DNA of 51,087 bases, taken from IMG/VR virus record IMGVR_UViG_3300020055_000028, positions 1 to 51,087 of that record; one strand, 5' to 3'. Below the pieces are notes generated by a model. The model was not told the DNA's origin. It was given only the letters and a program-made list of their open reading frames with translations, and searched no databases. Made by a program: the position numbers and the translations under genes. The first letter of the stretch is position 1. Each line of letters begins with the position of its first letter. The DNA is from a virus. This document shows positions 1 to 48,627 of this stretch, one piece after another.

Positions 1-1227
1 ATTACTTGGGATAAATCAGCAAATACACTGAACTTCGATGATAATAACTATCTCACTATGGGTACTGGTGGTGATTTCATTATGTACCACGAAGGTGCTA
101 ACACATATATTAAAGAATTAAATGCTACCGGTGATTTAGTGCTTCAAGCAAATAATATGCAGCTTGAAGATACAAGCGGACAAGCATATTTCTGTGGTAC
201 TGCTGGCCAAGGTGCATCTATGCACTTCAATGGTGATCAAAAGCTGATTACTACAAATATTGGTATAGACATCGAGGGTGAAGCTAACACTGATACCCTA
301 CGTGTTCAGTCAACTGCTCTTTTTGAAGAAGATGTTTTCTTTGATACAGCTTCTACAAATAATGCCATTTATATTGATTATTCAGAAAATAGAATGCTTT
401 TCGCGAATAATATTGGTTTGTATTTTGGTCACGCCCATCACGAGTGTTTACATTTATTCAATGATGGCATTAACGCCGTTATCAGAGAGGAAGGTTCAGG
501 TAATCTAGAAATACAAGCTAATAATGTTTTGATTGAAGATACCGATGCAACTTCTATGATTACGGCTGAATCAGGAAACGGTGTTAAATTATATTATAAC
601 GGAAATCAAAAATTCATTACGACTACGATAGGTATCGATGTTACGGGTAAAGTACAAGGCGATAGTCTACAGATCGATGGCAATGTAGATCTTGGTTCAC
701 TTAGTACTCATAGCATTAGTGTAAATGGTAGACTAGATACTAATTTAATTTCTAGTAATCAATCTAATGTTGGTTCAATGGCATTGCCATGGGATTGGGG
801 TTACTTCAACGATATCAACGTAGCGAATACTGCGACAATTCTTAACCTCGAAGTCACAACGTTGGAAGCAAATGGTGTTGCATTAACAGGCACTGGCGGA
901 GATGTTACTACGACTTCAGCCACAGAAATTGATAGTATTGATTTGCAATCTTTGAATAAGACACAAGGATTTAAATATTTCGTTCACGGCAAAGATTTGA
1001 ATGATTCAGATTCAGGTTATGCAGTCGAGATAAATGTTGTCATAACAGATAATGATGACATTTATTATACACGTTATGGTGAAGTAGAAACAAATATGAG
1101 TGATGTATCTCTCGTTCCTGAATTAGCTGCGAATACTACACATGTCGTATTAAAAGCAACATGTGGTTCAGCGTCAGGTACAAATATACATAGATTTAAT
1201 GTAATGAAGATCGAGACGAGAGATTAA
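1..1227 (+). CDS. Tail fibre-type structural protein, 5'-truncated by window edge
   Basis: The reading frame is open from base 1, and the first 19 codons (ITWDKSANTLNF...) continue smoothly into the later sequence. The ATG at 58 is therefore internal and the gene starts upstream of the window. At least 408 residues are present. The protein is made of repeating segments of the type NxLxF-DN followed by HEGANTYI or YYNGNQKFITT, with ELNATGDLVLQANN and EEGSGNLEIQANN in parallel positions. This is the style of beta-rich phage fibre shafts. The end (about residues 310-408 of the visible part) lacks repeats and may be a C-terminal cap. The stop overlaps the next start (TAATG). The structural role is inferred from repeat style and context; no enzymatic motif is seen. 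Confidence 0.75.
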   Translation: MTWDKSANTLNFDDNNYLTMGTGGDFIMYHEGANTYIKELNATGDLVLQANNMQLEDTSGQAYFCGTAGQGASMHFNGDQKLITTNIGIDIEGEANTDTLRVQSTALFEEDVFFDTASTNNAIYIDYSENRMLFANNIGLYFGHAHHECLHLFNDGINAVIREEGSGNLEIQANNVLIEDTDATSMITAESGNGVKLYYNGNQKFITTTIGIDVTGKVQGDSLQIDGNVDLGSLSTHSISVNGRLDTNLISSNQSNVGSMALPWDWGYFNDINVANTATILNLEVTTLEANGVALTGTGGDVTTTSATEIDSIDLQSLNKTQGFKYFVHGKDLNDSDSGYAVEINVVITDNDDIYYTRYGEVETNMSDVSLVPELAANTTHVVLKATCGSASGTNIHRFNVMKIETRD

Positions 1228-1640
1228 TGGCAAACGCTATATACGATAAATTTAAAGAGGCTATTCTCAGTGGTAGCAGTGATTCTGCTTTAAATAATGG
1301 CAATCTGAAGGTTGCGCTGATCAATACTGACAATGAGAGTTATACTGCGACAGATCAGTTTTATTCTGACGTGAGTGCGCTAGCCAATACTGCAGTAGCT
1401 AATGCTACATTGACAAATGTCACTCTGACAAACGGTGTATTAGATGCCGACGATGTGAGATTTGTCTCGGTCACAGATACAACAGAATGCGAAGCTTTAT
1501 TGTTTTATATCGACACAGGAAACACAGCAACGAGCAGACTAGTTGCATTTATGGATACAAATATCAACGGACTACCAATTACACCTGATGGCTCGAATGT
1601 AGATATTTCATGGAGCACATCAGGAATATTCAAATTATAA
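1227..1640 (+). CDS. Small conserved phage structural protein
   Basis: This 137-residue protein starts with MANAIYDKFKEAILSG, followed by NLKVALINTD, FYSDVSALA, a valine/threonine-rich strand region, LLFYIDTGNTATSRLVAF, GLPITPDGSNVDISW and a C-terminal IFKL. I recognise this layout as a protein widespread in tailed phages and usually annotated as hypothetical or structural. Family recognition is from memory. Translation is coupled to the preceding fibre gene through a TAATG overlap, which suggests co-production with it. No signal peptide, membrane segment or catalytic motif is visible. The exact role in the particle is unknown. Confidence 0.7.
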   Translation: MANAIYDKFKEAILSGSSDSALNNGNLKVALINTDNESYTATDQFYSDVSALANTAVANATLTNVTLTNGVLDADDVRFVSVTDTTECEALLFYIDTGNTATSRLVAFMDTNINGLPITPDGSNVDISWSTSGIFKL

Positions 1641-1652
1641 GAAGAGAAAAAA

Positions 1653-2741
1653 ATGGCATCTACATCACAACAATTTGATACTCTCGATGGATTAGTCGTC
1701 ACAGGAGACATGTCGGTTGGAGCCAATTTAAATGTCGATTCGGGTACATTGTTTGTCGATGCTTCTACTAATCGTGTAGGTATCGGCAAGACAAACCCGC
1801 AGTATAATTTGGATATCCCCGGAAATGCATTTATCGATACGCTGACCGCAAACAACTTTAACTACGTTTCTATTTCTTCTATTAATATTGATAATTTAAC
1901 TTTTTCAGGCAATACAGTTGAATCTTCATCTTTGCTAATATTAAAATCTGGATCTACTAATGCTATTGATCTAGATAGCGGCGCGGGTGCTGTTAGATTA
2001 GAAAAAGGTTCTACTGAATATGGTCGTTTGAGTGAAAATGGTGGTAGCTTAGTCATTGCAGCAGGCGCATCAACATCTACTGCATTAACTCTTCAGGCAG
2101 ATGGCGATGCATTCTTTGCAGCAAATGTGCATATGGTGAATGGCGACTATTTCCATTTAGGCGCTAATACGTTGAGAGGTACCAATAGCGGAGTACAAAT
2201 TAGCTCTAACACATATCATGCCGGCTATTTAGTACACTCTACAACTGATACTGATACACATATTAAATTTAATAATAATCAAATCGCATTGACTGCTGGT
2301 GGTTCAACAGTCTTATCTGCCAATTCTACTATCATCAGCACCCCTAAGCTAAAGGTTGATGATTTTTTCCTTGAAAATGTATATGAAGGCACGATAGATA
2401 CTTCAGCAAATCCCGATAGATATATTTTTAATATGCAATTGGGATCGGTTCAAACTATTACTGCGGTCGCTGATTTTCATGTAGATTTTTCAGGTATGTC
2501 AGCTCTCCCAGCTAGCACTGCAGCTACTTTTACATTGATAGTCACGAATAGTGGCGGAACTCATGAAATTACATGGCCCGGAAGTACCGAAGATGACGCA
2601 ATGTATTGGGCTGAAGGTGTAGAGCCTCCTTCTTCTAGCGGTGTAGATATATACACTTTTTATTATGTTAGAAATTCAGCTGGAACAGGCGGTACAATGT
2701 ATGCTGGATTAGCATTACGAAAAGCTGGATGGGCGCAGTAA
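1653..2741 (+). CDS. Tail fibre-type structural protein
   Basis: The 362-residue protein begins QQFDTLDGLVVTGDMSVGANLNVDSGTL and contains the VDASTNRVGIGKTNP motif common in phage fibre shafts (a strand with the VGIGT-type turn). Further segments are LDSGAGAVRLEKGS, ALTLQADGDAFFAAN and IKFNNNQIALTAGG. The C-terminal third (about 240-362) is different and ends in a strand-rich domain with EITWPGS and TFYYVRNSAGTGG, resembling C-terminal tip domains of other phage fibres. A purine-rich leader (agaagagaaaaaa) precedes the ATG. It sits between the small conserved protein and the Tyr/Pro-repeat protein. The fibre assignment is inferred from motif style. Confidence 0.7.
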   Translation: MASTSQQFDTLDGLVVTGDMSVGANLNVDSGTLFVDASTNRVGIGKTNPQYNLDIPGNAFIDTLTANNFNYVSISSINIDNLTFSGNTVESSSLLILKSGSTNAIDLDSGAGAVRLEKGSTEYGRLSENGGSLVIAAGASTSTALTLQADGDAFFAANVHMVNGDYFHLGANTLRGTNSGVQISSNTYHAGYLVHSTTDTDTHIKFNNNQIALTAGGSTVLSANSTIISTPKLKVDDFFLENVYEGTIDTSANPDRYIFNMQLGSVQTITAVADFHVDFSGMSALPASTAATFTLIVTNSGGTHEITWPGSTEDDAMYWAEGVEPPSSSGVDIYTFYYVRNSAGTGGTMYAGLALRKAGWAQ

Positions 2742-2753
2742 CAGGAGTTAAAT

Positions 2754-4664
2754 ATGCCAGCTGGAGGTAAAGGATTTTTTTCGAGAACATGGGCTGAGAC
2801 GTTTAACGAATCGCGTGACGTCGCCACTCGAAATACTCCTATTGATTTACCATACGGAAAACATGTTCTAGAAATTGAAGGGCGTGGCGGACGTGGTCAA
2901 CCAAATGTAATACAACCAGCATATCAAGTACAAACTTTATATCCCGCGCGGGATTATCAACAAGCTGCTTATCAGACTAGTCAACCAGCTTATTATGTGC
3001 AAACTAATTATCCTGCTAGATATACTCTTCAGCCTGCATATACACGTTACGTAGATCATCCTGAAAGATATACAACTCAACCTGCTTATGAAACTTCGGC
3101 TGCAAAACCTGCTCGTTTTACTCTTCAACCAGCATATACTACATATACAAATCATCCTGAAAGATATACATCTCAGCCTGCGTATCTAACCGCGGCTGCT
3201 AAACCAGCTAGATATACTCTTCAACCAGCATATGAAACATCTCGCTTTTATGAAGGCACATCGTATTATTCGCCAGCATATGAAACATCTAGCTTTTATG
3301 AAGGCGCATCGTATTATTCGCCAGCATATTCAACATCTGCTTTTTATGAAGGCACAAACCATTATTATCAAGCTGGTTATCATGAATATACCTATTATCC
3401 AGCACGCGGGTATTGGACCTCGCATCCGTCGAGAGGCTATTATCAAGCTGGATACGGCCCAGTAGTAGACTATTTTAATTCATTTCCTAGTTTCGATGGA
3501 TATGTTTATTATCCTGAAAGATATATTGTACAACCAGCTTATAGTACGTACTTCCTTCATTACGGCCGATGGATATATGATCCAAGTAAAAATTTTCCGG
3601 CGCGCTATACTGTACAATTTGGTTATCATTCTGGTCCATATTATTATCTCCGCGCGACGCCAGAGGACACAGTACCAGTCACATGGATAGATGGCTACAT
3701 AGCCGCAAATTATTACCCTACTAGATATTCTGTACAACCTAGTTATCCTAGCCCGCAATCATATTATCAAATACATGGATGGTATTATTGGGCTGATAAT
3801 TATCCAGCGAGATTTACAAGACAACCTGGTTATTTAAAATATACAAATTACCCTGCTAGATCCTATTGGCAGGCTGCCTATACACGATTAGATGGCTATC
3901 AACCCGCGTATCAAGTAATACAATATTTCCCGGAGAGGTCATATACTCAACCAGATGTAACTACATACACTAATTATCCTGGTAGAACATATGTTGAACC
4001 AGATTTAACTTTATATAGTAATCATCCTGGTAGAACATATACTCAACCAGATGTAACTACATATAGTAATTATCCGTTGAGATATTCTGTACAGCCATCA
4101 TATACACAATACACTAGTTATCCACAGCGTATTTCATATCATGCTCCTTATGAAACATCTCAAAATCATCCATTGAGATATTCTAAACAACCAGCCTATA
4201 CTCAATATAGTAATTTTCCACAACGTATTTCATATCAGGCTGCATATGAAACATCTACGAGTTATCCATTGAGATATAGTGTTAATCCTGCTTATCAAGT
4301 ACAAACGTTGTATCCGTCGAGAACGACTTATTACCCATCTCGAACTTATCAACAACCAGCTTATTATGTGCAAACTAATTATCCTGCTAGATATTTTACT
4401 GGAACATCTGGAGAAGATACGATTGTATATGTACAAGATGCACAAAATACATATTATCAATTTAGAGCTCCTGGCACTGCTTCTCCGGCGGCCGGTTCTT
4501 ATACCAATCCCGCTTTGCCCCCTACAGTATATGCGACCGTTTATGCAACTGAAGTTGGTGGTGTTTATCAAACATCTGTACAAGCTTATGTTGGTTCAGG
4601 AACAAACAATACAAATGCTGCCCAAAAAGGGTTTATAAATATGAAGTACGATGCTGACGTTTAA
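2754..4664 (+). CDS. Tyr/Pro/Arg-rich 16-residue repeat protein, candidate adhesive virion protein
   Basis: The protein has 636 residues. An N-terminal segment (1-55) has LPYGKHVLEIEGRGGRG. From about residue 57 to 560 it consists of degenerate repeats of roughly 16 residues with the pattern [YHFK]-P-x-R-[YFT]-x-x-Q-P-A-Y followed by about five polar or aromatic residues. I count 24 [YHFK]PxR motifs. A Gly/Thr/Tyr-containing C-terminal domain (about 561-636) starts GTSGEDTIVYVQ. Tyrosine and proline are extremely abundant and I see no cysteine. AGGAG precedes the ATG. A PKHD-type hydroxylase is the next gene, 21 bases downstream. Low-complexity Tyr/Pro repeats recall animal adhesive proteins, but only by composition. 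Placement among fibre genes suggests a virion component. The function is unknown to me. Confidence 0.8.
   Translation: MPAGGKGFFSRTWAETFNESRDVATRNTPIDLPYGKHVLEIEGRGGRGQPNVIQPAYQVQTLYPARDYQQAAYQTSQPAYYVQTNYPARYTLQPAYTRYVDHPERYTTQPAYETSAAKPARFTLQPAYTTYTNHPERYTSQPAYLTAAAKPARYTLQPAYETSRFYEGTSYYSPAYETSSFYEGASYYSPAYSTSAFYEGTNHYYQAGYHEYTYYPARGYWTSHPSRGYYQAGYGPVVDYFNSFPSFDGYVYYPERYIVQPAYSTYFLHYGRWIYDPSKNFPARYTVQFGYHSGPYYYLRATPEDTVPVTWIDGYIAANYYPTRYSVQPSYPSPQSYYQIHGWYYWADNYPARFTRQPGYLKYTNYPARSYWQAAYTRLDGYQPAYQVIQYFPERSYTQPDVTTYTNYPGRTYVEPDLTLYSNHPGRTYTQPDVTTYSNYPLRYSVQPSYTQYTSYPQRISYHAPYETSQNHPLRYSKQPAYTQYSNFPQRISYQAAYETSTSYPLRYSVNPAYQVQTLYPSRTTYYPSRTYQQPAYYVQTNYPARYFTGTSGEDTIVYVQDAQNTYYQFRAPGTASPAAGSYTNPALPPTVYATVYATEVGGVYQTSVQAYVGSGTNNTNAAQKGFINMKYDADV
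2922..4400 (+). repeat. Degenerate 48-nt (16-codon) coding repeats
   Basis: These encode the 16-residue units of the Tyr/Pro-rich protein. Typical neighbouring units read HPERYTTQPAYETSAA, KPARFTLQPAYTTYTN and HPERYTSQPAYLTAAA. A near-identical block coding QPAYYVQTNYPARY appears at both ends of the array (around 2983 and 4355), so the array looks bracketed by copies of one unit. Confidence 0.8.
3228..3371 (+). repeat. Three near-identical 48-nt tandem units
   Basis: Within the larger array, three consecutive copies encode PAYETSRFYEGTSYYS, PAYETSSFYEGASYYS and PAYSTSAFYEGTNHYY. The first two copies are nearly identical in DNA, indicating recent unit duplication by slippage or recombination. 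Confidence 0.8.
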
Positions 4665-4685: not shown

Positions 4686-5297
4686 ATGTTTCAAATTCAA
4701 GAAAAGCTTGTCCCTCCTCATTTTCTTTCTCATTTCGGTGTTATGAAATCTGTTTTTGACGATGAAGAAATCGATCGAATCAAATTTTACGAGAAGATTT
4801 TAGATTTTACGCCGGCGGCAACGGTCGGCCAAAAAGTTGATCCAGAAACTCATGACCCGGATGTTCATGATTATCGAAATAATAAAGTCGGTTATATGAC
4901 TGTTGATCAAAATACCGAATGGTTATGGAGTAAAATAGCGCATATAACAGGCAAAGCTAATTACGATTTATTCCTATACGATATTGAATTTCTAGAAACA
5001 ATAAACTATTTGATATATGAAGAAGGCAATGAGTATAAAGAACATCGCGACTGCTCATCTTACGGTTATCGCAAATATGATAGAAAAATATCAGGTATAG
5101 TAATGTTATCTGATTCGGACGAATATGAAGGTGGAGAACTCGAAATAAATATATCAGCAACCTCCTTTGAAAAAACTGAATTACAGAAAGGTGATGTGGC
5201 ATTTTTTGATAGTTGGTTTACTCATCGAGTAAATCCAGTTACTAAAGGAACTAGAAGGACATTAGCATTTTGGGCGCATGGATTGAACAAAATATGA
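4686..5297 (+). CDS. PKHD-type 2OG-Fe(II) dioxygenase (prolyl hydroxylase-like)
   Basis: This 203-residue protein has the double-stranded beta-helix signature of Fe(II)/2-oxoglutarate dioxygenases. The Fe-binding HxD is in YKEHRD (H120, D122), the distal His is in WFTHRV (H180), and the 2OG-binding Arg is in PVTKGTRRTLAFW (R190). The run GGELEI followed by KGDVAFFDSWFTHRVNPVT matches the prolyl 4-hydroxylase/PiuC-type core. All key residues are present, so activity is likely. The substrate cannot be read from sequence. Prolyl or other side-chain hydroxylation is the family norm, and the immediate upstream gene encodes a Pro/Tyr-repeat protein. A strong ribosome site (AAGGTGA) lies 7 bases before the ATG. 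The stop overlaps the next start (ATGA). Confidence 0.88.
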   Translation: MFQIQEKLVPPHFLSHFGVMKSVFDDEEIDRIKFYEKILDFTPAATVGQKVDPETHDPDVHDYRNNKVGYMTVDQNTEWLWSKIAHITGKANYDLFLYDIEFLETINYLIYEEGNEYKEHRDCSSYGYRKYDRKISGIVMLSDSDEYEGGELEINISATSFEKTELQKGDVAFFDSWFTHRVNPVTKGTRRTLAFWAHGLNKI

Positions 5298-5558: not shown

Positions 5559-5888
5559 ATGGCTGAAGAAGAACAGATAAAACACGCGTATCACCCAGCA
5601 GATTCTAATGGAGATGGTAAAGTTAGCAAAGAAGAAGAAAGATTATACCTTGAATTCAAAAGAAAAGAACTTGAAGATGCAGATGCAATGCGAGATGCTC
5701 AAAGAAAAATGGCATGGTTCGCTCTTGCTGGTATGTTGCTCTATCCCGCCATGGTTGTTATTACTGATCTTGCTGGATTAGAAAAAGCATCAAATATTTT
5801 AGGTGACATGGCTCCAACATATTTTGTTGCCGTCGCTGGTTTAGTAGCAGCGTTTTTTGGAGCACAAGCTTATCAAAAAGGAAAATAA
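5559..5888 (+). CDS. EF-hand plus two-TM membrane protein, holin candidate
   Basis: The 109-residue protein has three parts. Residues 14-25 form a canonical calcium-binding EF-hand loop (DSNGDGKVSKEE). A charged helix follows (about 26-50). Two hydrophobic segments come last (about 52-70, WFALAGMLLYPAMVVI, and about 86-105, YFVAVAGLVAAFFGAQAY), before a short basic tail. It directly precedes a spanin pair, which makes it the best holin candidate in the window. EF-hand small membrane proteins are familiar in marine phages, though usually unassigned. The holin role is inferred from topology and position. Calcium binding is predicted from the loop residues. Confidence 0.6.
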   Translation: MAEEEQIKHAYHPADSNGDGKVSKEEERLYLEFKRKELEDADAMRDAQRKMAWFALAGMLLYPAMVVITDLAGLEKASNILGDMAPTYFVAVAGLVAAFFGAQAYQKGK

Positions 5889-5891
5889 ATT

Positions 5892-6284
5892 ATGCCAATA
5901 TTGATTTTGTTATTTTTATTAATGTCAATGGGTGGAGGAGCGTGGTATTATTATACTGATACTCAAGAAAGGCTTGCAACTCTCAGAGACAATAACTCAA
6001 AGCTAATGTTAGTCGCGGAAACAAATCAACAAACGATTGACAGCCTGCAAAAAGATTACGCGATCGCTCAAGAAAATCTAGAGAACCTCGCGAAAAGAGC
6101 ACAAGAGGCAGAAGTATATCAAGATGAATTAGCAGCAAAGCTAAGACGACATGATTTGACTGTTCTTACCCTACAAAAACCTGGATTAATTGAAAAGAGA
6201 GTAAACAATGCAACATCCAAAATTTTTATGCAAATTGAAGCTGACACTGGTAACCAGTCTGCTATTGCTTCTCAGTCTGAATAG
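5892..6284 (+). CDS. i-spanin-like (Rz-type) inner-membrane protein
   Basis: This is a 130-residue protein with an N-terminal membrane segment (about residues 2-20, PILILLFLLMSMGGGAWYYY) and then a long heptad-like helical region (about 25-95, rich in Q/E/K/L). This is the architecture of Rz-type i-spanins, which link the inner membrane to an outer-membrane partner during the last step of lysis. The following gene starts inside this one in another frame and encodes a lipoprotein, the classic overlapping Rz/Rz1 arrangement. Assignment rests on topology and gene overlap, because spanins are poorly conserved in sequence. Confidence 0.65.
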   Translation: MPILILLFLLMSMGGGAWYYYTDTQERLATLRDNNSKLMLVAETNQQTIDSLQKDYAIAQENLENLAKRAQEAEVYQDELAAKLRRHDLTVLTLQKPGLIEKRVNNATSKIFMQIEADTGNQSAIASQSE

Positions 6285-6660
6285 CGGCTGTGCGAGTGTA
6301 GAACCACAAGTCGTTGTAAAAACAGATTATATTGTCAAAGACATTCCGATTCAACCTCGACCTAAACCAGTAAATTTACATCGTGTAAAATTTTATGCTG
6401 TTACTCCGGAAAATATAGACGAATTTTTACAAAAGTTCGAAAAAGAATCAGGTGTTACCGTTTATTTTGCATTGAGTGTACCTGATTATGAAAACATGAG
6501 TTTGAATGTTGCAGAATTGCGTAGATATATAAACCAGCAGCAAGCTCTTATTATATATTATGAAGAGTCTATCGAGACTATGATAAGAGAAACTCCTGAA
6601 GATTCAGAAGTTATAGTTCAAGAAGGAACCGATTCTTTATTTGATTTATTTAAATGGTAA
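6208..6660 (+). CDS. o-spanin-like (Rz1-type) lipoprotein
   Basis: The 150-residue protein has a positively charged N-terminus, a hydrophobic stretch (LTLVTSLLLLLSL) and a lipobox-like LNSGC with the candidate lipidated Cys near residue 28. A short Pro-rich segment (IQPRPKPVN) follows, and then a 90-residue soluble domain. Rz1 proteins are outer-membrane lipoproteins, often Pro-rich. The start lies 77 bases inside the i-spanin gene. The protein is longer than many Rz1 proteins, so it could also be another outer-membrane lipoprotein. Lipid attachment implies a Gram-negative host envelope. An in-frame TTG at 6235 would give a shorter signal peptide. Confidence 0.62.
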   Translation: MQHPKFLCKLKLTLVTSLLLLLSLNSGCASVEPQVVVKTDYIVKDIPIQPRPKPVNLHRVKFYAVTPENIDEFLQKFEKESGVTVYFALSVPDYENMSLNVAELRRYINQQQALIIYYEESIETMIRETPEDSEVIVQEGTDSLFDLFKW

Positions 6661-6663
6661 ATT

Positions 6664-7395
6664 ATGACAATTGATGTAAAATTTTTAGATACTAGTAATG
6701 GTATGTATCGGATTCATCCAGTTCAACGAGCAGCAGCAGTTGAAGCCGCACATAAAAAGAAACAAATAGACAAACACGGCAAAGAAACCTTTGTCGATTG
6801 TCCTGGTATTTTTGATTATAAAAATACTGGTTGGATTATACCAGCTTGGGATGAATTTAAAATATATTGTTCAGACAAAGCGACGATGGCATATGCTGGT
6901 GGCAGCTCAAAAATGCGCGAGGCAAACGGTAATATTCCATGTCCAGTGCATCATGATAGTAATCCAAATGGTATGAGTCCAGATATTACTGATGGCATAC
7001 CTCCAGGTGACAAAAATGCAGTTGCAAGATTGCAACCACTTCATTTTACTTCTCCATGGATGGTAATGCCAGAAGGAGATGTATCTTTCTTATTATTGGC
7101 TCCTCATTATCATTCAGATATTGTTGATGATTTTATCATTTATCCGGGAATAGTAGATTATAATCCTCGATTTGGAGCTTTAAATTGGATTATGTCACCT
7201 CGAAGAGAGGGTACTTATACAATTAAAGCTGGTACTCCATTATTACATGTAATACCAATACATAAAGCTGATTATAGAATTATCATGACTCCAGAGAAAA
7301 GAGAAAGACCTGGAATCATTGCTTCTGCTAGTCAATTTTATCGTAAATACGTTATGAAAAGATCAAAATATACAGTGGAAATAAAAGATGATTAA
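6664..7395 (+). CDS. DUF6065-like protein of unknown function
   Basis: The 243-residue protein contains PWMVMPEGDVSFLLLAP, YPGIVDY, a strand pair around INWIMSP-like sequence (ALNWIMSPRREG), and AGTPLLHVIPIHKADYRI. This succession matches my recollection of the DUF6065 family, a beta-sandwich/cupin-like group found beside oxygenases and in phages. I cannot verify the match. Cys- and His-rich CPVHHDSNP near residue 97 could bind a metal, but this is speculative. The gene overlaps the next oxygenase gene by 8 bases, which is itself joined to a further oxygenase by an ATGA overlap. The three form a translationally coupled unit. No function is assigned. Confidence 0.6.
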   Translation: MTIDVKFLDTSNGMYRIHPVQRAAAVEAAHKKKQIDKHGKETFVDCPGIFDYKNTGWIIPAWDEFKIYCSDKATMAYAGGSSKMREANGNIPCPVHHDSNPNGMSPDITDGIPPGDKNAVARLQPLHFTSPWMVMPEGDVSFLLLAPHYHSDIVDDFIIYPGIVDYNPRFGALNWIMSPRREGTYTIKAGTPLLHVIPIHKADYRIIMTPEKRERPGIIASASQFYRKYVMKRSKYTVEIKDD

Positions 7396-8182
7396 TCAAG
7401 AAAAACTTGAAGATTTAAAATTAGATATTTGGTTTAATGATAGGGGCGTATATGTTGAAAATATACTAGAAGAACCAGAAATCTATGCCGACTGGGATAG
7501 TTTAGTAGAAACATTTGCTTTACCCCATGTGGGTAATCACTTGTATATGAATAAAACTGACGATATAAGTGAAATAGTAAATGTTGTAAATATTAGAAAT
7601 ACTAATGGTCTAGAAAAACAATATTTAAAAACAAATGAAATTCAGAAAGAAGTTAAATCTTTTAACGAATCGCCGTGTGTCACATCACAAGAATTATTAG
7701 AAAATAATCATACGTTTATAGTCACTGATTGGGAAAGATATAACGAAAATGCCAGAAATATAATTCATCAATTATTAGAGACTTTTTATGTTGAACATGT
7801 AAATTTTGGCATTTGGCCAGCACAAATTAGCGATTATTCTGGGCATGCTCATTTATATGCTGGTTTAAAAGACAGTAATTCATTTAGTCCTCACTGTGAT
7901 ATGCCTTCGAATTTTATTTTTCAAATAGATGGTGAAACTGAAGTTACCATTTATAAAAATCGTAGCTGTCAATTATTAGATAGTTCGATAGACGGCACAT
8001 GGGAAGAAGATAGAAGAAAAGAATTATTCGATAGTTTCGAAATTGATTTTGAGGTCGTAATGAAACCAGGTGATATGATTTATGTTCCTTCACGTCAATA
8101 TCATTATTTTAAACCATTGACAAATCGATTATCAATTAGTTATCCACTTATATATCGCAGTCCTTTCGAAGGCATGTTATGA
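7388..8182 (+). CDS. JmjC/cupin-type Fe(II)/2OG oxygenase
   Basis: The 264-residue protein has the cupin/JmjC pattern in its second half. SPHCDMPSNFIFQIDGE provides HxD (H169, D171) on the strand that leads into the jelly roll, and MKPGDMIYVPSRQYHYF provides the distal His (H239). A conserved-looking Arg follows in NRLSISYPL. This resembles Cupin_4/Cupin_8 and ribosomal-oxygenase-type hydroxylases, which modify protein side chains. Residues 1-130 have no recognised motif and may be a substrate-binding part. The full metal triad suggests activity. The substrate is unknown. The start lies inside the preceding DUF6065-like gene and the stop overlaps the next gene (ATGA). Confidence 0.75.
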   Translation: MINQEKLEDLKLDIWFNDRGVYVENILEEPEIYADWDSLVETFALPHVGNHLYMNKTDDISEIVNVVNIRNTNGLEKQYLKTNEIQKEVKSFNESPCVTSQELLENNHTFIVTDWERYNENARNIIHQLLETFYVEHVNFGIWPAQISDYSGHAHLYAGLKDSNSFSPHCDMPSNFIFQIDGETEVTIYKNRSCQLLDSSIDGTWEEDRRKELFDSFEIDFEVVMKPGDMIYVPSRQYHYFKPLTNRLSISYPLIYRSPFEGML

Positions 8183-8844
8183 GCGATCAATTACAAATAT
8201 CACGCCAATATCTTTGGTCAGATAGTCTTTTTGAAATAAAAATTCCAAATGCGAATAATCAAGCGATAGTAGATTTTTATGAGATCGGGTCTAAATCACA
8301 CAAAGGAGATGCACGATCAAATATAGGTGGATGGCAATTCCCTATGAAAGATGGTATGTGTGAAGAATATGATCAAATTATGGATAGAATAGTTGAAGGT
8401 GTAAATCATATTGCAAACAATGTAATGGGCATGAGTTTAATTATAGAAATGTCTAATTCGTGGATAAATACAAATAAATTAGGTGCCAAAAATGCATTTC
8501 ATACACATCCTGGATGTTTATTTTCTGGTGTTTATTATGCGAAAGTACCAAAAATAGGCGATCCGGGTTATATTAATTTCGTTAGAGAAGGTCATCATCA
8601 AATTGAATCGACCCTCGCTTTTTTTGCTGATCATTATGCACAACAAAGATTAGAGCAAAATGGTGGAGATGATAGAGATATGCAATGGATCACTCATATG
8701 ACCGTGCCGCCTGTCGAAAGTAGCGCTTTAATTTTTCCATCATGGTATGGTCATGAAGTATATACATCTTTATCAGAAAAAGAAGATAGAATTGCTGTAG
8801 GTATGAATTTCTCTCCACGGTTGACTTCAGAAAATAATAAATAA
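8179..8844 (+). CDS. 2OG-Fe(II) oxygenase, TIGR02466-like
   Basis: The 221-residue protein shows WINTNKLGAKNAFHTHPGCLFSGVYY-type core features. Fe-binding candidates are H108 and H110 in FHTHP, a distal His in PSWYGHEV (H192), and an Arg in EDRIAVGMNF (R204). The succession H-x-HP...SGVYY...LIFPSWxxH...R..V..N matches the putative 2OG-Fe(II) oxygenase family I know as TIGR02466, which occurs in many marine phages and bacteria. The first metal-site motif reads HxH rather than HxD, so the ligand assignment is tentative. It is translationally coupled to the JmjC-type gene. The substrate is unknown. Confidence 0.75.
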   Translation: MSDQLQISRQYLWSDSLFEIKIPNANNQAIVDFYEIGSKSHKGDARSNIGGWQFPMKDGMCEEYDQIMDRIVEGVNHIANNVMGMSLIIEMSNSWINTNKLGAKNAFHTHPGCLFSGVYYAKVPKIGDPGYINFVREGHHQIESTLAFFADHYAQQRLEQNGGDDRDMQWITHMTVPPVESSALIFPSWYGHEVYTSLSEKEDRIAVGMNFSPRLTSENNK

Positions 8845-25844: not shown

Positions 25845-27008
25845 ATGGACGAATTCAATGACATTATAAACAAAGCCTTTTCGGTAAGTTTATATAAAAA
25901 ATTAGACAAAAGGACTGATGAGAAACTTGATAGTCTAAAAGAAAATATCAAGACACTCAAAAGTTTTACTGGCCCGATCGGACCAGCAGGTCCAGCAGGT
26001 CCACAGGGTCCAGAAGGCCCACCGGGGATTATAGGTGAAGAAGGTCCAAGAGGTTTCAAGGGTGATACAGGTCCTCAGGGTCCAGAAGGACCGGCAGGTC
26101 CTCAAGGACCGCAAGGAGAAAAAGGAGATCCGGGCGGACCAGTCGGTCCACAAGGCCTTCAAGGAGATATTGGACCAAGAGGTCCGCAAGGTGTACCGGG
26201 ACCACCAGGATTAAAAGGTGATAGAGGACCAACTGGTCTAAAAGGAAATAAAGGTCCAAAAGGTTTACGCGGTCTTAGAGGTTTAGAAGGTCCACAAGGT
26301 ATACCAGGACCAATTGGTCCAGAAGGAAAAATTGGACCAAGAGGAGAAACAGGACCTCAAGGATTACAAGGACCAAAAGGTGATATTGGTCCTCAAGGTT
26401 TAACAGGTAAAATAGGTCCAAAAGGACCAAAAGGTGCTAAGGGCGCCAAAGGCCCAAAAGGTGATACAGGTCCTCAGGGTCCAGCGGGTAAAGATGCACC
26501 TGATTATAAAATTCAAATTGAAGACGCATTAGACGAATTCAATAAGAAAATTCAGACAGTTCAAAAAGGCTTTGATAAAAAAGCCAGTGAGATGTTTAAT
26601 AGATTTGGACTGGTTGGCGCGACAGGTAGTGGTGAAGTAAAACTAAGAAGATTGGACGATGTCGAATTCGATACGCTCAATCCACCGTTAGACGGCACTC
26701 TACTTACATATGATGCGGTACAGAAAAAATTTGTATTTGATACGTTTGTAGGTGTTGCATCTGCATCTGGTGTAAATTTACAAGTAACTACACTCGATGA
26801 TTTTCAAACATTTACACGCGCTTTATCTGGAACAAGTTTTACAGTAGATCTAGAAGTCGAAAATCTTATAAATATTGTAGAATATTTTATTGTAAGAGAT
26901 AGTGACAATGTTAGAGTATATCCAGTAATTGATAGAACGATAACTGAGATAAATATAGAATCAAACCTAGATCTAACAGGAACAACACTAACTATAATTC
27001 ACTACTAA
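25845..27008 (+). CDS. Collagen-like Gly-X-Y repeat protein
   Basis: The 387-residue protein has a charged helical N-terminus (1-42, coiled-coil-like) and then a collagen-like tract (43-217) of 58 Gly-X-Y triplets, interrupted once by an extra Gly ([10 protein letters not shown]). A helical linker follows ([25 protein letters not shown]), and then a C-terminal strand-rich domain (about 255-387). Prolines are mostly in the X position (GPx), with only a few in Y (GPP, GDP, GVP, GIP). Lysine is frequent in Y (12 cases such as GPK, GLK, GAK). Collagen-like tracts form trimeric shafts in phage fibres. It starts 3 bases after the portal stop, where T4 has scaffold and protease genes. A fibre or head-decoration shaft is inferred. 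Confidence 0.85.
25971..26495 (+). repeat. Collagen-like Gly-X-Y coding tract
   Basis: 58 triplets (18 + 40) with a single-residue break after the 18th. The DNA is dominated by 9-nt steps starting GGT/GGA and CC-rich codons, making it locally GC-rich and giving long spurious antisense ORFs. Confidence 0.9.
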
Positions 27009-46128: not shown

Positions 46129-48627
46129 ATGGCAACTAATTTTCCAGCAAATCCATCTAACGGCGATACACACGCTGGATTTACATTTAACTCTGCAACT
46201 GGTGCTTGGGAATCAAGCGCAGTTACTCCATCAGCTCAAGACCCAGCAGTTACAGTATATGCTACCGTCGATGACCTTCCGACTTCTGGTGTGACAACTG
46301 GACAACAAGCATTCGTATCTGCTACAAATCGTTTATATATTTGGAATAGTAGTGGTTGGTATAATATTGCTTTGATTAATACGACTCCAAGCATTAGCGG
46401 AGCTTCTGCAAGCTATGATCTCGCATCAGATGGTACTCCTACAGTTGTAACAATTACTGCATCAGATCCAGAAGGACTTCCTATTACATACGACATTGTC
46501 TCTGATACCTCAGGAAATACGGCGACTGTCACTTCTAATAATAATATCTTTACGATTACTCCTTCTACAAATGACGCAGATGCAGGAACATTCTCACTTA
46601 CATTCCGTGCAAGTGACGGAGTAAATATTGCTTCTGCAATTTCTGAGTTTATTTTGCAGTTTAAAATTGTAAATAGTAACTATACTACAGCTTTGATCAC
46701 ATCAGTCGGTACCAATAATGAAGTCAACAATTCATTTGTAGATTCAAGTACCAACAGTAATGCGATTACTGCTACTGGAAATGCAACTCAGACTACGTTT
46801 AGTCCATATCGACATGGAGGGTATTCGACTTATTTTGACGGAAGCGGCGATTATTTAACAGGTCCCTCTATTGTTTTAAGTAATACTGTCCCATTTACTA
46901 TTGAACTATGGTATTACAATACATCAACTGGTACTTCTGAAGAAGGACTAATTGTTCAAAGAAACGGTGCTTCTTCACCGTGGAATGGGTGGCGCATATT
47001 CAATAATGTTGGCTCTGCTAATACATTAAGTTTTTATAATGGAACCTCATATGTAACAATTGCAACAAATCTTCCAAAAAATCAATGGCATCATATTGCA
47101 GTTGTATCCCAAGGATCCGGAACTAATCAAGGTCAATGTTATTTGAATGGTGTAGCTTCTGGATCTGCATTTACTGTTGATAGTTTAATTAATTTTAATG
47201 GTAATCTTGCAATTGGTACAGATAACGCAGTTACATCGCGAACTATGACAGGCTATTTAGCGGATGTAAGAGTAGTTAACGGTACAGCAGTTTACACCTC
47301 TAATTTTACTCCTACAACAGAACGACTCACAGCAATCACAAACACCAGCCTACTGACCTGTCATCTGCCTTACATAGCAGATGGTTCAACAAATGGTCAC
47401 TCTATTTCTGTTAACGGCAACACCAAAACAACGCCATTCTCACCATACGACTACGAAACATATTCTGCTGCAGACAACGGCGGGTCGATATATTTTGATG
47501 GTAGTGGCGACAAGTTGACAATTCCTGGAACTTATTGGAATTTTGGTACAAATCCATTTACGGTTGAAGCTTGGGTATATCCAAATAGTGCTAATGGACC
47601 TATATTTACTACTCATAGAGCGGGCACAGCAAGTGGTTTTTATTTTTCAATGACTACTACCAATAACGCTATACTTCATGGAAGATATTACGGCAGTAAT
47701 GTGGAAACGGCTTCATCTGCTAATGCTGTTAAACTAAATCAATGGAATCATTTTGCATGGTGTCGAGAAGGAACAGGATCAAATCAAACTAGAATGTTTG
47801 CAAATGGCAAAGTAGTTGCAACATATACAGATAATCAAGATTACTCTAGTGCTCCGTATGGTCCTTTTGTAGGAGGATATGATGCGGGGGGTGCTCAATA
47901 CGATGTAAATGGAAATATTGCAGATTTAAGAGTAGTTTCTGGAACCGCTCTTTATACAGCAGACTTCACCCCGCCCACAACACCACTAACAGCAATCACC
48001 AATACGTCATTGCTTCTTAAGGGTACGAACGCTGGAATTATTGATAAGTCGCAGTCAGTACAGACTTTGACTTTGAACGGTGATGCGAAGTCGTCCACTA
48101 CCCAGAGCAAGTATTTAACCTCGTCAATGTATTTTGATGGGACTGATGACTATCTAGAAGCAACTGCTTCAAGTTTATTTGATTTTGGATCGGAGGACTT
48201 TACTATTGAAATGTGGGCGTATCCACAAACCGATTCGGATGATAGAGGTGGGCTATTTGAATTATACGTAGACGACAACAATGTATTGCGCATATTTAGA
48301 CAAACCGGTGATGTGATAGAAGCTCTTGCAAGAAATGGAGGAGTAAATCAGTTTCAGATTACATCCTCTATAACTAATGATCAATGGGTTCATTATGCTT
48401 TGGTTAACAATGGAGGTACCGTTAGTTTCTATAAAAATGGTACTTTAGTTGGTTCAGATTCCAGTTTTACACTTCCTGACTTTAGTTCTGCAAGAGTTTT
48501 GATTGGACTGGATTTGTACGGCACCGATCGTTGGTATACAGGCTACATATCAGATGTCCGCATCACCAAAGGTCTAGCAAGATACACATCTAACTTCACA
48601 CCACCCACAGCAGCGTTACAAGGGTAA
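46129..48627 (+). CDS. Fibre protein with three LamG-like domains
   Basis: The 832-residue protein starts ATNFPANPSNGDTHAGFTFNSATGAW, followed by NRLYIWNSSGWYNIA and a cadherin-like domain (about 100-185). Three LamG/concanavalin-like domains follow at about 230-425, 450-640 and 660-830. Each starts YFDGSGDYL or an equivalent (YFDGSGDKL, YFDGTDDYL), has a FTIELWYY/FTVEAWVY/FTIEMWAY strand, an NQWHHIAVVS-type strand (NQWNHFAWCR, DQWVHYALVN), and ends in ADVRVVNGTAVYTSNFTPTT-type sequence. LamG-like domains bind glycans or proteins in other systems. A surface-adhesion function for this fibre is inferred. The domains are too diverged in DNA to be a very recent triplication, except at the joints. 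Confidence 0.8.
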   Translation: MATNFPANPSNGDTHAGFTFNSATGAWESSAVTPSAQDPAVTVYATVDDLPTSGVTTGQQAFVSATNRLYIWNSSGWYNIALINTTPSISGASASYDLASDGTPTVVTITASDPEGLPITYDIVSDTSGNTATVTSNNNIFTITPSTNDADAGTFSLTFRASDGVNIASAISEFILQFKIVNSNYTTALITSVGTNNEVNNSFVDSSTNSNAITATGNATQTTFSPYRHGGYSTYFDGSGDYLTGPSIVLSNTVPFTIELWYYNTSTGTSEEGLIVQRNGASSPWNGWRIFNNVGSANTLSFYNGTSYVTIATNLPKNQWHHIAVVSQGSGTNQGQCYLNGVASGSAFTVDSLINFNGNLAIGTDNAVTSRTMTGYLADVRVVNGTAVYTSNFTPTTERLTAITNTSLLTCHLPYIADGSTNGHSISVNGNTKTTPFSPYDYETYSAADNGGSIYFDGSGDKLTIPGTYWNFGTNPFTVEAWVYPNSANGPIFTTHRAGTASGFYFSMTTTNNAILHGRYYGSNVETASSANAVKLNQWNHFAWCREGTGSNQTRMFANGKVVATYTDNQDYSSAPYGPFVGGYDAGGAQYDVNGNIADLRVVSGTALYTADFTPPTTPLTAITNTSLLLKGTNAGIIDKSQSVQTLTLNGDAKSSTTQSKYLTSSMYFDGTDDYLEATASSLFDFGSEDFTIEMWAYPQTDSDDRGGLFELYVDDNNVLRIFRQTGDVIEALARNGGVNQFQITSSITNDQWVHYALVNNGGTVSFYKNGTLVGSDSSFTLPDFSSARVLIGLDLYGTDRWYTGYISDVRITKGLARYTSNFTPPTAALQG

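Follow-up and report, generated by a model that had tools for sequence, protein, structure and literature searches.

2OG-Fe(II) oxygenases are numerous in marine phages, and the targets of these enzymes have so far been guessed to be mostly metabolic. Published suggestions for phage oxygenases are roles in metabolism or DNA repair (PMC3037559, PMC9602691), and their functions 'have not been specifically investigated' (PMC9602691). Phage 2OG-Fe(II) oxygenases of PHROG_61 are structurally similar to EGLN3 (PMC12774648). A virus-encoded prolyl 4-hydroxylase with proposed viral protein substrates is described for Chlorovirus PBCV-1 (Eriksson et al. 1999, as cited in PMC9301287 and PMC7019647), and the viral use of prolyl 4-hydroxylase 'remains cryptic' (PMC9301287). 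According to a study of collagens in E. coli prophages, the prolyl hydroxylases needed are absent from bacteria and viruses (PMC3368898).

Here, a 51,087-nucleotide stretch of phage DNA (the window) was analysed. The phage is T4-like, with terminase, sheath, tube, portal and neck genes, and among phage records its terminase was closest to those of Sinorhizobium phages phiN3 and phiM12 (58%). An open reading frame at 2754..4664 (+), with an ATG start, encodes a Tyr/Pro-rich repeat protein of 636 residues. Three structural genes lie upstream, in an order that is the same in the related contigs L001, L003 and L101, and the oxygenase gene and a probable lysis cassette follow downstream (Table 1). 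The cassette was identified by a match to PHROG_812 (6e-13) and by a homologue that adjoins lysozyme in Roseobacter phage CRP-207. Because the repeat gene has tail/structural genes on one side and the lysis cassette on the other, its product is likely to be a late particle component. The first-pass annotation had proposed such a component, and a location in the virion is suggested by gene position.

Table 1 Features of the window discussed in the text (L001, L101 and G005 are related contigs)
Feature	Position	Strand	Evidence
Virion structural protein	58-1227	+	PHROGs
Minor-tail-like protein, phrog_644	1227-1640	+	PHROGs; homologous phages annotate a minor tail subunit
Tail-fibre-like protein	1653-2741	+	PHROGs
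Repeat protein, N-terminal domain (residues 1-52)	2754..2909	+	GKGFFSRTWAETF...LPYGKxxLEIxGRGG; conserved in 6/6 members; dN/dS 0.05
Repeat protein, Tyr/Pro repeat region (residues 53-546)	2910..4391	+	16-residue unit YPxRxxxQPAYxxxTN; motif and autocorrelation statistics
Repeat protein, C-terminal domain (residues 547-636) plus stop codon	4392..4664	+	VYATxYA and KGFINMKYD motifs; alignment; HMM finds the domain in 6/6 members; dN/dS 0.06
2OG-Fe(II) oxygenase, prolyl-4-hydroxylase fold	4686..5297	+	PF13640, PHROG_61, invariant triad, Foldseek, tree
Membrane protein, holin-like	5559-5888	+	Probable lysis cassette (cassette span 5559..6660)
Inner spanin	5892-6284	+	Probable lysis cassette
Outer Rz-like spanin	6208-6660	+	Probable lysis cassette
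JmjC_2/Cupin_8 oxygenase	7388-8182	+	Pfam, JmjC_2 2.8e-13; kept in L001, G005, L101
2OG-FeII_Oxy_5 oxygenase	8179-8844	+	Pfam; kept in L001, G005, L101
Collagen-like protein	25845..27008	+	Gly-X-Y run of at least 40 triplets without a break; follows the portal gene directly

Several other features of these regions were recorded. The inner and outer spanin genes of the window (5892-6660) lie in overlapping frames. The lysis cassette recurs in about 20 further phage contigs, most of which, as far as their upstream sequence is available, lack the repeat/oxygenase pair. In the records of Pelagibacter phage HTVC008M (L136) and Melnitz-3 (L137), CsgF, CsgG and curlin-like genes are annotated a few kb from the homologue of window 5559-5885. 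The window gene at 6664-7395 matched phrog_7084 and had no Pfam match. An 832-residue protein encoded at 46129-48627, in which three Laminin_G_3 domains are accompanied by a cadherin-like region, is probably a receptor-binding or decoration protein. DUF6065 proteins adjoin the oxygenase in L003 (L003:6573-7301) and in G005 (L083:1227-1946), and a DUF6065 gene of L043 (L043:5198-5935) is situated between a Gly-rich/collagen-like gene and an oxygenase.

The repeat region accounts for about 494 residues of the repeat protein. The [YHFK]PxR motif occurs 24 times, against a mean of 0.8 and a maximum of 5 in 2,000 same-composition shuffles, and is accompanied by 11 QPAY and 14 QPxY motifs; the protein contains 17.1% Tyr, 10.7% Thr, 9.7% Pro, 5.7% Arg, 5.5% Gly and no Cys. 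These counts and shuffles agree with the earlier description of about 500 repetitive residues in 636, with 24 [YHFK]PxR motifs, many QPAY motifs and no cysteine. Self-identity reached 0.31 at lag 16 and 0.29 at lag 32 (shuffle maximum 0.14), and 86 units from four members gave the consensus [ND]YP[SA]R...QPAY...T. The 16-residue period reported at first pass is therefore real, but its register is broken mid-repeat: the spacing between motifs is exactly 16 in 14 of 23 intervals and ranges from 7 to 65 in the rest. A variant block, EGTSYYSPAY, was seen at about residues 160-210. No Gly-X-Y run was found in the repeat protein, which with its period of 16 differs from collagen-like phage fibres. 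The gene is protein-coding and under purifying selection, with a dN/dS against L001 of 0.20 overall and 0.24 in the repeat; the values for both end domains are listed in Table 1. An AlphaFold prediction of the monomer, made with an alignment of 4 sequences, had a mean pLDDT of 23.5 and no confident fold.

Homology searches with the repeat protein gave no real match in Pfam, PHROGs, PDB sequences or phage records (tblastn), in keeping with the earlier statement that the repeat belongs to no well-characterised family. Weak PDB matches (E of 0.03 and above) were taken as compositional. Searches with the N- and C-terminal domains returned chance matches only among 50,697 phage records, and HMMs of the two domains found nothing convincing in all fetched loci outside the family; a likeness of the N-terminus to Gly-rich phage proteins of L043 and L048, noted by eye only, was given no weight. 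Members were then sought in 2.9 million IMG/VR contigs with the oxygenase, the whole protein, the repeat DNA pattern and the end domains as queries. Five further members were identified (L001, L002, L003, L085+L083 and L101), making six with the window; L085+L083 is one gene split over two loci of the 160-kb contig G005. The DNA pattern also matched six times in 84,980 prokaryote genomes, and as none of the six encodes the repeat in frame these matches were attributed to chance. Because five further members were found in IMG/VR and no prokaryote-genome match carried the repeat in frame, the family appears to be small and confined to phages as far as seen. The profile search proposed in the first-pass annotation thus led to a small phage-only family and not to a known family that acts differently. 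Judged by its sequence, the YPxR repeat is a new protein repeat family.

The gene adjoining the repeat gene, which lay outside the earlier finding, is of prolyl-hydroxylase type and is the best lead to the function of the locus. Its product matched PF13640 (4.7e-16; 60 bits, with the cut-off at 27) and PHROG_61 (4.3e-30). Residues H120, D122, H180 and R190, the HxD...H...R set comprising the iron triad and the basic 2OG-binding residue, are invariant in 38 aligned oxygenases. The predicted structure (pLDDT 85) has a double-stranded beta-helix fold of P4H/PHD type. The top Foldseek matches of this model were to the Pseudomonas putida prolyl-4-hydroxylase (4j25, 4iw3; E 3e-11, TM 0.67, 16-18% identity); matches at E below 1e-9 were to 4j25, 4iw3, 6t8m and PHD2 and covered Dictyostelium and human HIF prolyl hydroxylases and PiuC, and the TM against PHD2 was up to 0.73. 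By sequence profile, PKHD-type PiuC was the strongest match, followed by C. reinhardtii P4H, collagen P4H alpha-2 and others. Since PiuC leads by sequence profile, the prolyl substrate class is assigned from fold plus context and not from sequence alone. The model is that of a prolyl-hydroxylase-type enzyme, which may act on peptidyl proline.

The same oxygenase is encoded by the next gene after the repeat gene in all six members. The two genes are separated by a short gap in the three members checked, and in L101 the start codon overlaps the stop codon. In a maximum-likelihood tree the six YPxR-linked oxygenases formed one clade (support 100/100), about 30% identical to other family members, which often adjoin Gly-X-Y proteins. 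Second copies of the oxygenase family are present in two relatives (G003:C1:15145-15777 and G005:C1:69371-70027), in a replication-gene neighbourhood; they belong to a different subfamily, with 32-33% identity to the window enzyme.

The neighbours of related oxygenases were then compared. A scan with the oxygenase at 8179-8844 as a control returned one relative only, so a comparison within the family was used instead. Across 39 non-redundant loci, Gly-X-Y open reading frames made up 13 of 144 at one or two genes from the oxygenase and 6 of 236 at four or more (p=0.007). In the half of the tree that includes the window clade, a Gly-X-Y gene lay within four genes of the oxygenase in 11/16 loci, against 1/18 in the other half (p=1.8e-4), although the tree separates collagen-associated from other oxygenases with only moderate support (92/84) and many of the loci are contig fragments. 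In seven of these 11 collagen-associated loci the Gly-X-Y gene is directly upstream of the oxygenase.

Glycosyltransferases, including GT25 and PLOD-type domains, also adjoin related oxygenases; in a search for the GT25 family, the single genome with a match was G005, where it lies far from the repeat/oxygenase pair. In Synechococcus phage S-PRM1 (L096, NC_055761; 5411-8417), two 2OG-Fe(II) oxygenases are followed by gp162, recorded as hypothetical, whose glycosyltransferase domains are of GT25 and PLOD type (PF25342 9e-46, PF01755 5e-29) and which resembles a collagen-lysine-modification enzyme in a cyanophage. Two further loci (L004:661-4428 and L012:3475-7190) contain a collagen-like gene, a fusion of about 800 residues combining GT1, GT25 and 2OG-oxygenase parts, and an adjoining gene of prolyl-hydroxylase type, and have the make-up of phage-borne collagen-modification clusters.

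We consider it probable that the repeat protein is a late, most likely tail-associated fibre whose prolines are hydroxylated by the adjacent prolyl-4-hydroxylase-type enzyme. The main competing account stems from the collagen-like protein encoded by the window phage itself, which is a rival substrate for the hydroxylase. The enzyme would then act on that protein, on a small molecule or on a host protein, for instance EF-Tu or one of the ribosome, and the fibre formed by the repeat protein would be unmodified and only share the operon. This account, which we regard as rather unlikely, draws on the presence of the collagen-like gene, on the collagen-like genes adjoining related oxygenases, on the P. 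putida structure 4iw3, a complex with EF-Tu, and on the guesses of 2OG/nitrogen metabolism or DNA repair made for cyanophage oxygenases (PMC3037559, PMC9602691). However, the collagen-like gene is near the portal gene, 21 kb from the repeat/oxygenase pair. Moreover, contig G005, whose terminase is 94% identical to that of the window, keeps the pair, and over its 160 kb neither a Gly-X-Y run above five nor a collagen-like gene was found. Oxygenases of the window clade were found only beside the YPxR repeat (6/6). Among lysis-cassette loci that lack the repeat protein and extend 2 kb or more upstream, none carried an oxygenase of this clade; the oxygenase of one such locus, L153, belongs to another subfamily (35% identical). 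The adjacency of the two genes may reflect co-regulation only, and as the six member contigs are few and related, the co-inheritance of repeat and oxygenase counts as one event.

The remaining alternatives concern the chemistry of the repeat and the place of the protein. In the first-pass annotation, the composition was likened to that of mussel foot proteins and adhesive or cross-linking chemistry was suggested. A mussel-type protein acting through Tyr (DOPA) and cationic residues would fit the content of Tyr (17%) and Pro (10%), the lack of Cys and the tandem repeat; hydroxyproline, too, occurs in mussel foot proteins. The basic Lys/Tyr-rich character of mussel foot repeats was not found, however: Lys makes up about 1% or less of the repeat, and the net charges of the six members are -8.0, -5.2, -4.2, +6.5, +15.7 and +16.5. 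A tyrosinase search in five records gave no match, and its controls were silent too. In L101, 19 aromatic-Pro motifs are kept and only 5 have Arg at the fourth place (14/19 lost), compared with 22/24 or all in the other members. Of the window's repeat residues, 32% of Pro were identical in all six members, against 19% of Tyr, 17% of Arg and 12% or less of others. The conservation of Pro, the loss of Arg in L101 and the unstable charge together speak for a role built around proline rather than for a cationic adhesive or arginine modification, and the mussel-type reading now appears very improbable. Hydroxylation of the YPxR arginine by the JmjC_2/Cupin_8 enzyme (7388-8182; a YcfD-like class), besides or instead of proline, is suggested by the domain match and by the retention of that gene in three relatives, but L101 keeps the enzyme despite its lost arginines, and we think this reading very improbable. 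A non-virion late protein, such as an assembly scaffold or a lysis-associated factor, would suit a gene directly before the lysis cassette, with holin-like and spanin genes within 1 kb downstream. That role is unlikely given the three structural genes immediately upstream, the fibre-like architecture of a long repeat with two conserved end domains, and searches of Pfam and PHROGs that gave no lysis-domain signal in the repeat protein.

In the favoured account of a proline-hydroxylated fibre, two conserved end domains would be joined by an extended, proline-interrupted Tyr/Thr/Gln-rich repeat, and the oxygenase would hydroxylate the prolines at YP and QP sites, either before the fibre is assembled or in the course of assembly. 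By analogy with collagen and plant extensins, hydroxylation might stiffen or stabilise the extended chain, or ready it for other attachments. The repeat/oxygenase pair would then be the counterpart of phage modules of collagen-like fibre and hydroxylase, with a different repeat in the place of the substrate. More tentatively, the phage may make a virion fibre that is rich in hydroxyproline yet not collagen: a new structural repeat, evolved in place of the collagen-like substrate of that enzyme family and paired with a prolyl hydroxylase of its own. A bacterial virus would then have arrived independently at a solution like that of extensins or mussels. That the enzyme gene directly follows the repeat gene in all six members suggests that the virus could modify its own fibre chemically, as animals do with collagen. 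The locus names a specific candidate pair of enzyme and substrate, with a repetitive substrate and mutable catalytic residues; set beside the collagen-like pairs, it suggests a fibre-modifying rather than a metabolic role for one branch of the phage 2OG-Fe(II) oxygenases.

No description of a YPxR repeat or of such a repeat/hydroxylase pair was found in the open-access literature. The phage loci that combine a collagen-like fibre with a 2OG-Fe(II) oxygenase (for example L022, L027 and L031) share with the window the gene order and a long repeat structural protein directly upstream, and their oxygenases belong to the half of the tree that holds the window enzyme; they differ in the repeat, which in the window is YPxRxxxQPAY of 16 residues and not Gly-X-Y, unrelated in sequence and without the Gly periodicity of a triple helix. 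By family match, fold and active site the window enzyme is a member of PHROG_61/PF13640, within which the window enzymes are a distinct clade tied to one partner gene. The closest solved fold is that of the P. putida prolyl-4-hydroxylase, but identity is low and the known partner of that enzyme is EF-Tu and not a repeat protein. The PBCV-1 prolyl 4-hydroxylase is set apart as that of a eukaryotic algal virus, from which no YPxR repeat is known. Mussel foot protein 1 and plant extensins are Tyr/Pro tandem repeats modified by prolyl hydroxylases, whereas the window repeat has no sequence relation to them, is poor in Lys and does not conserve its charge.
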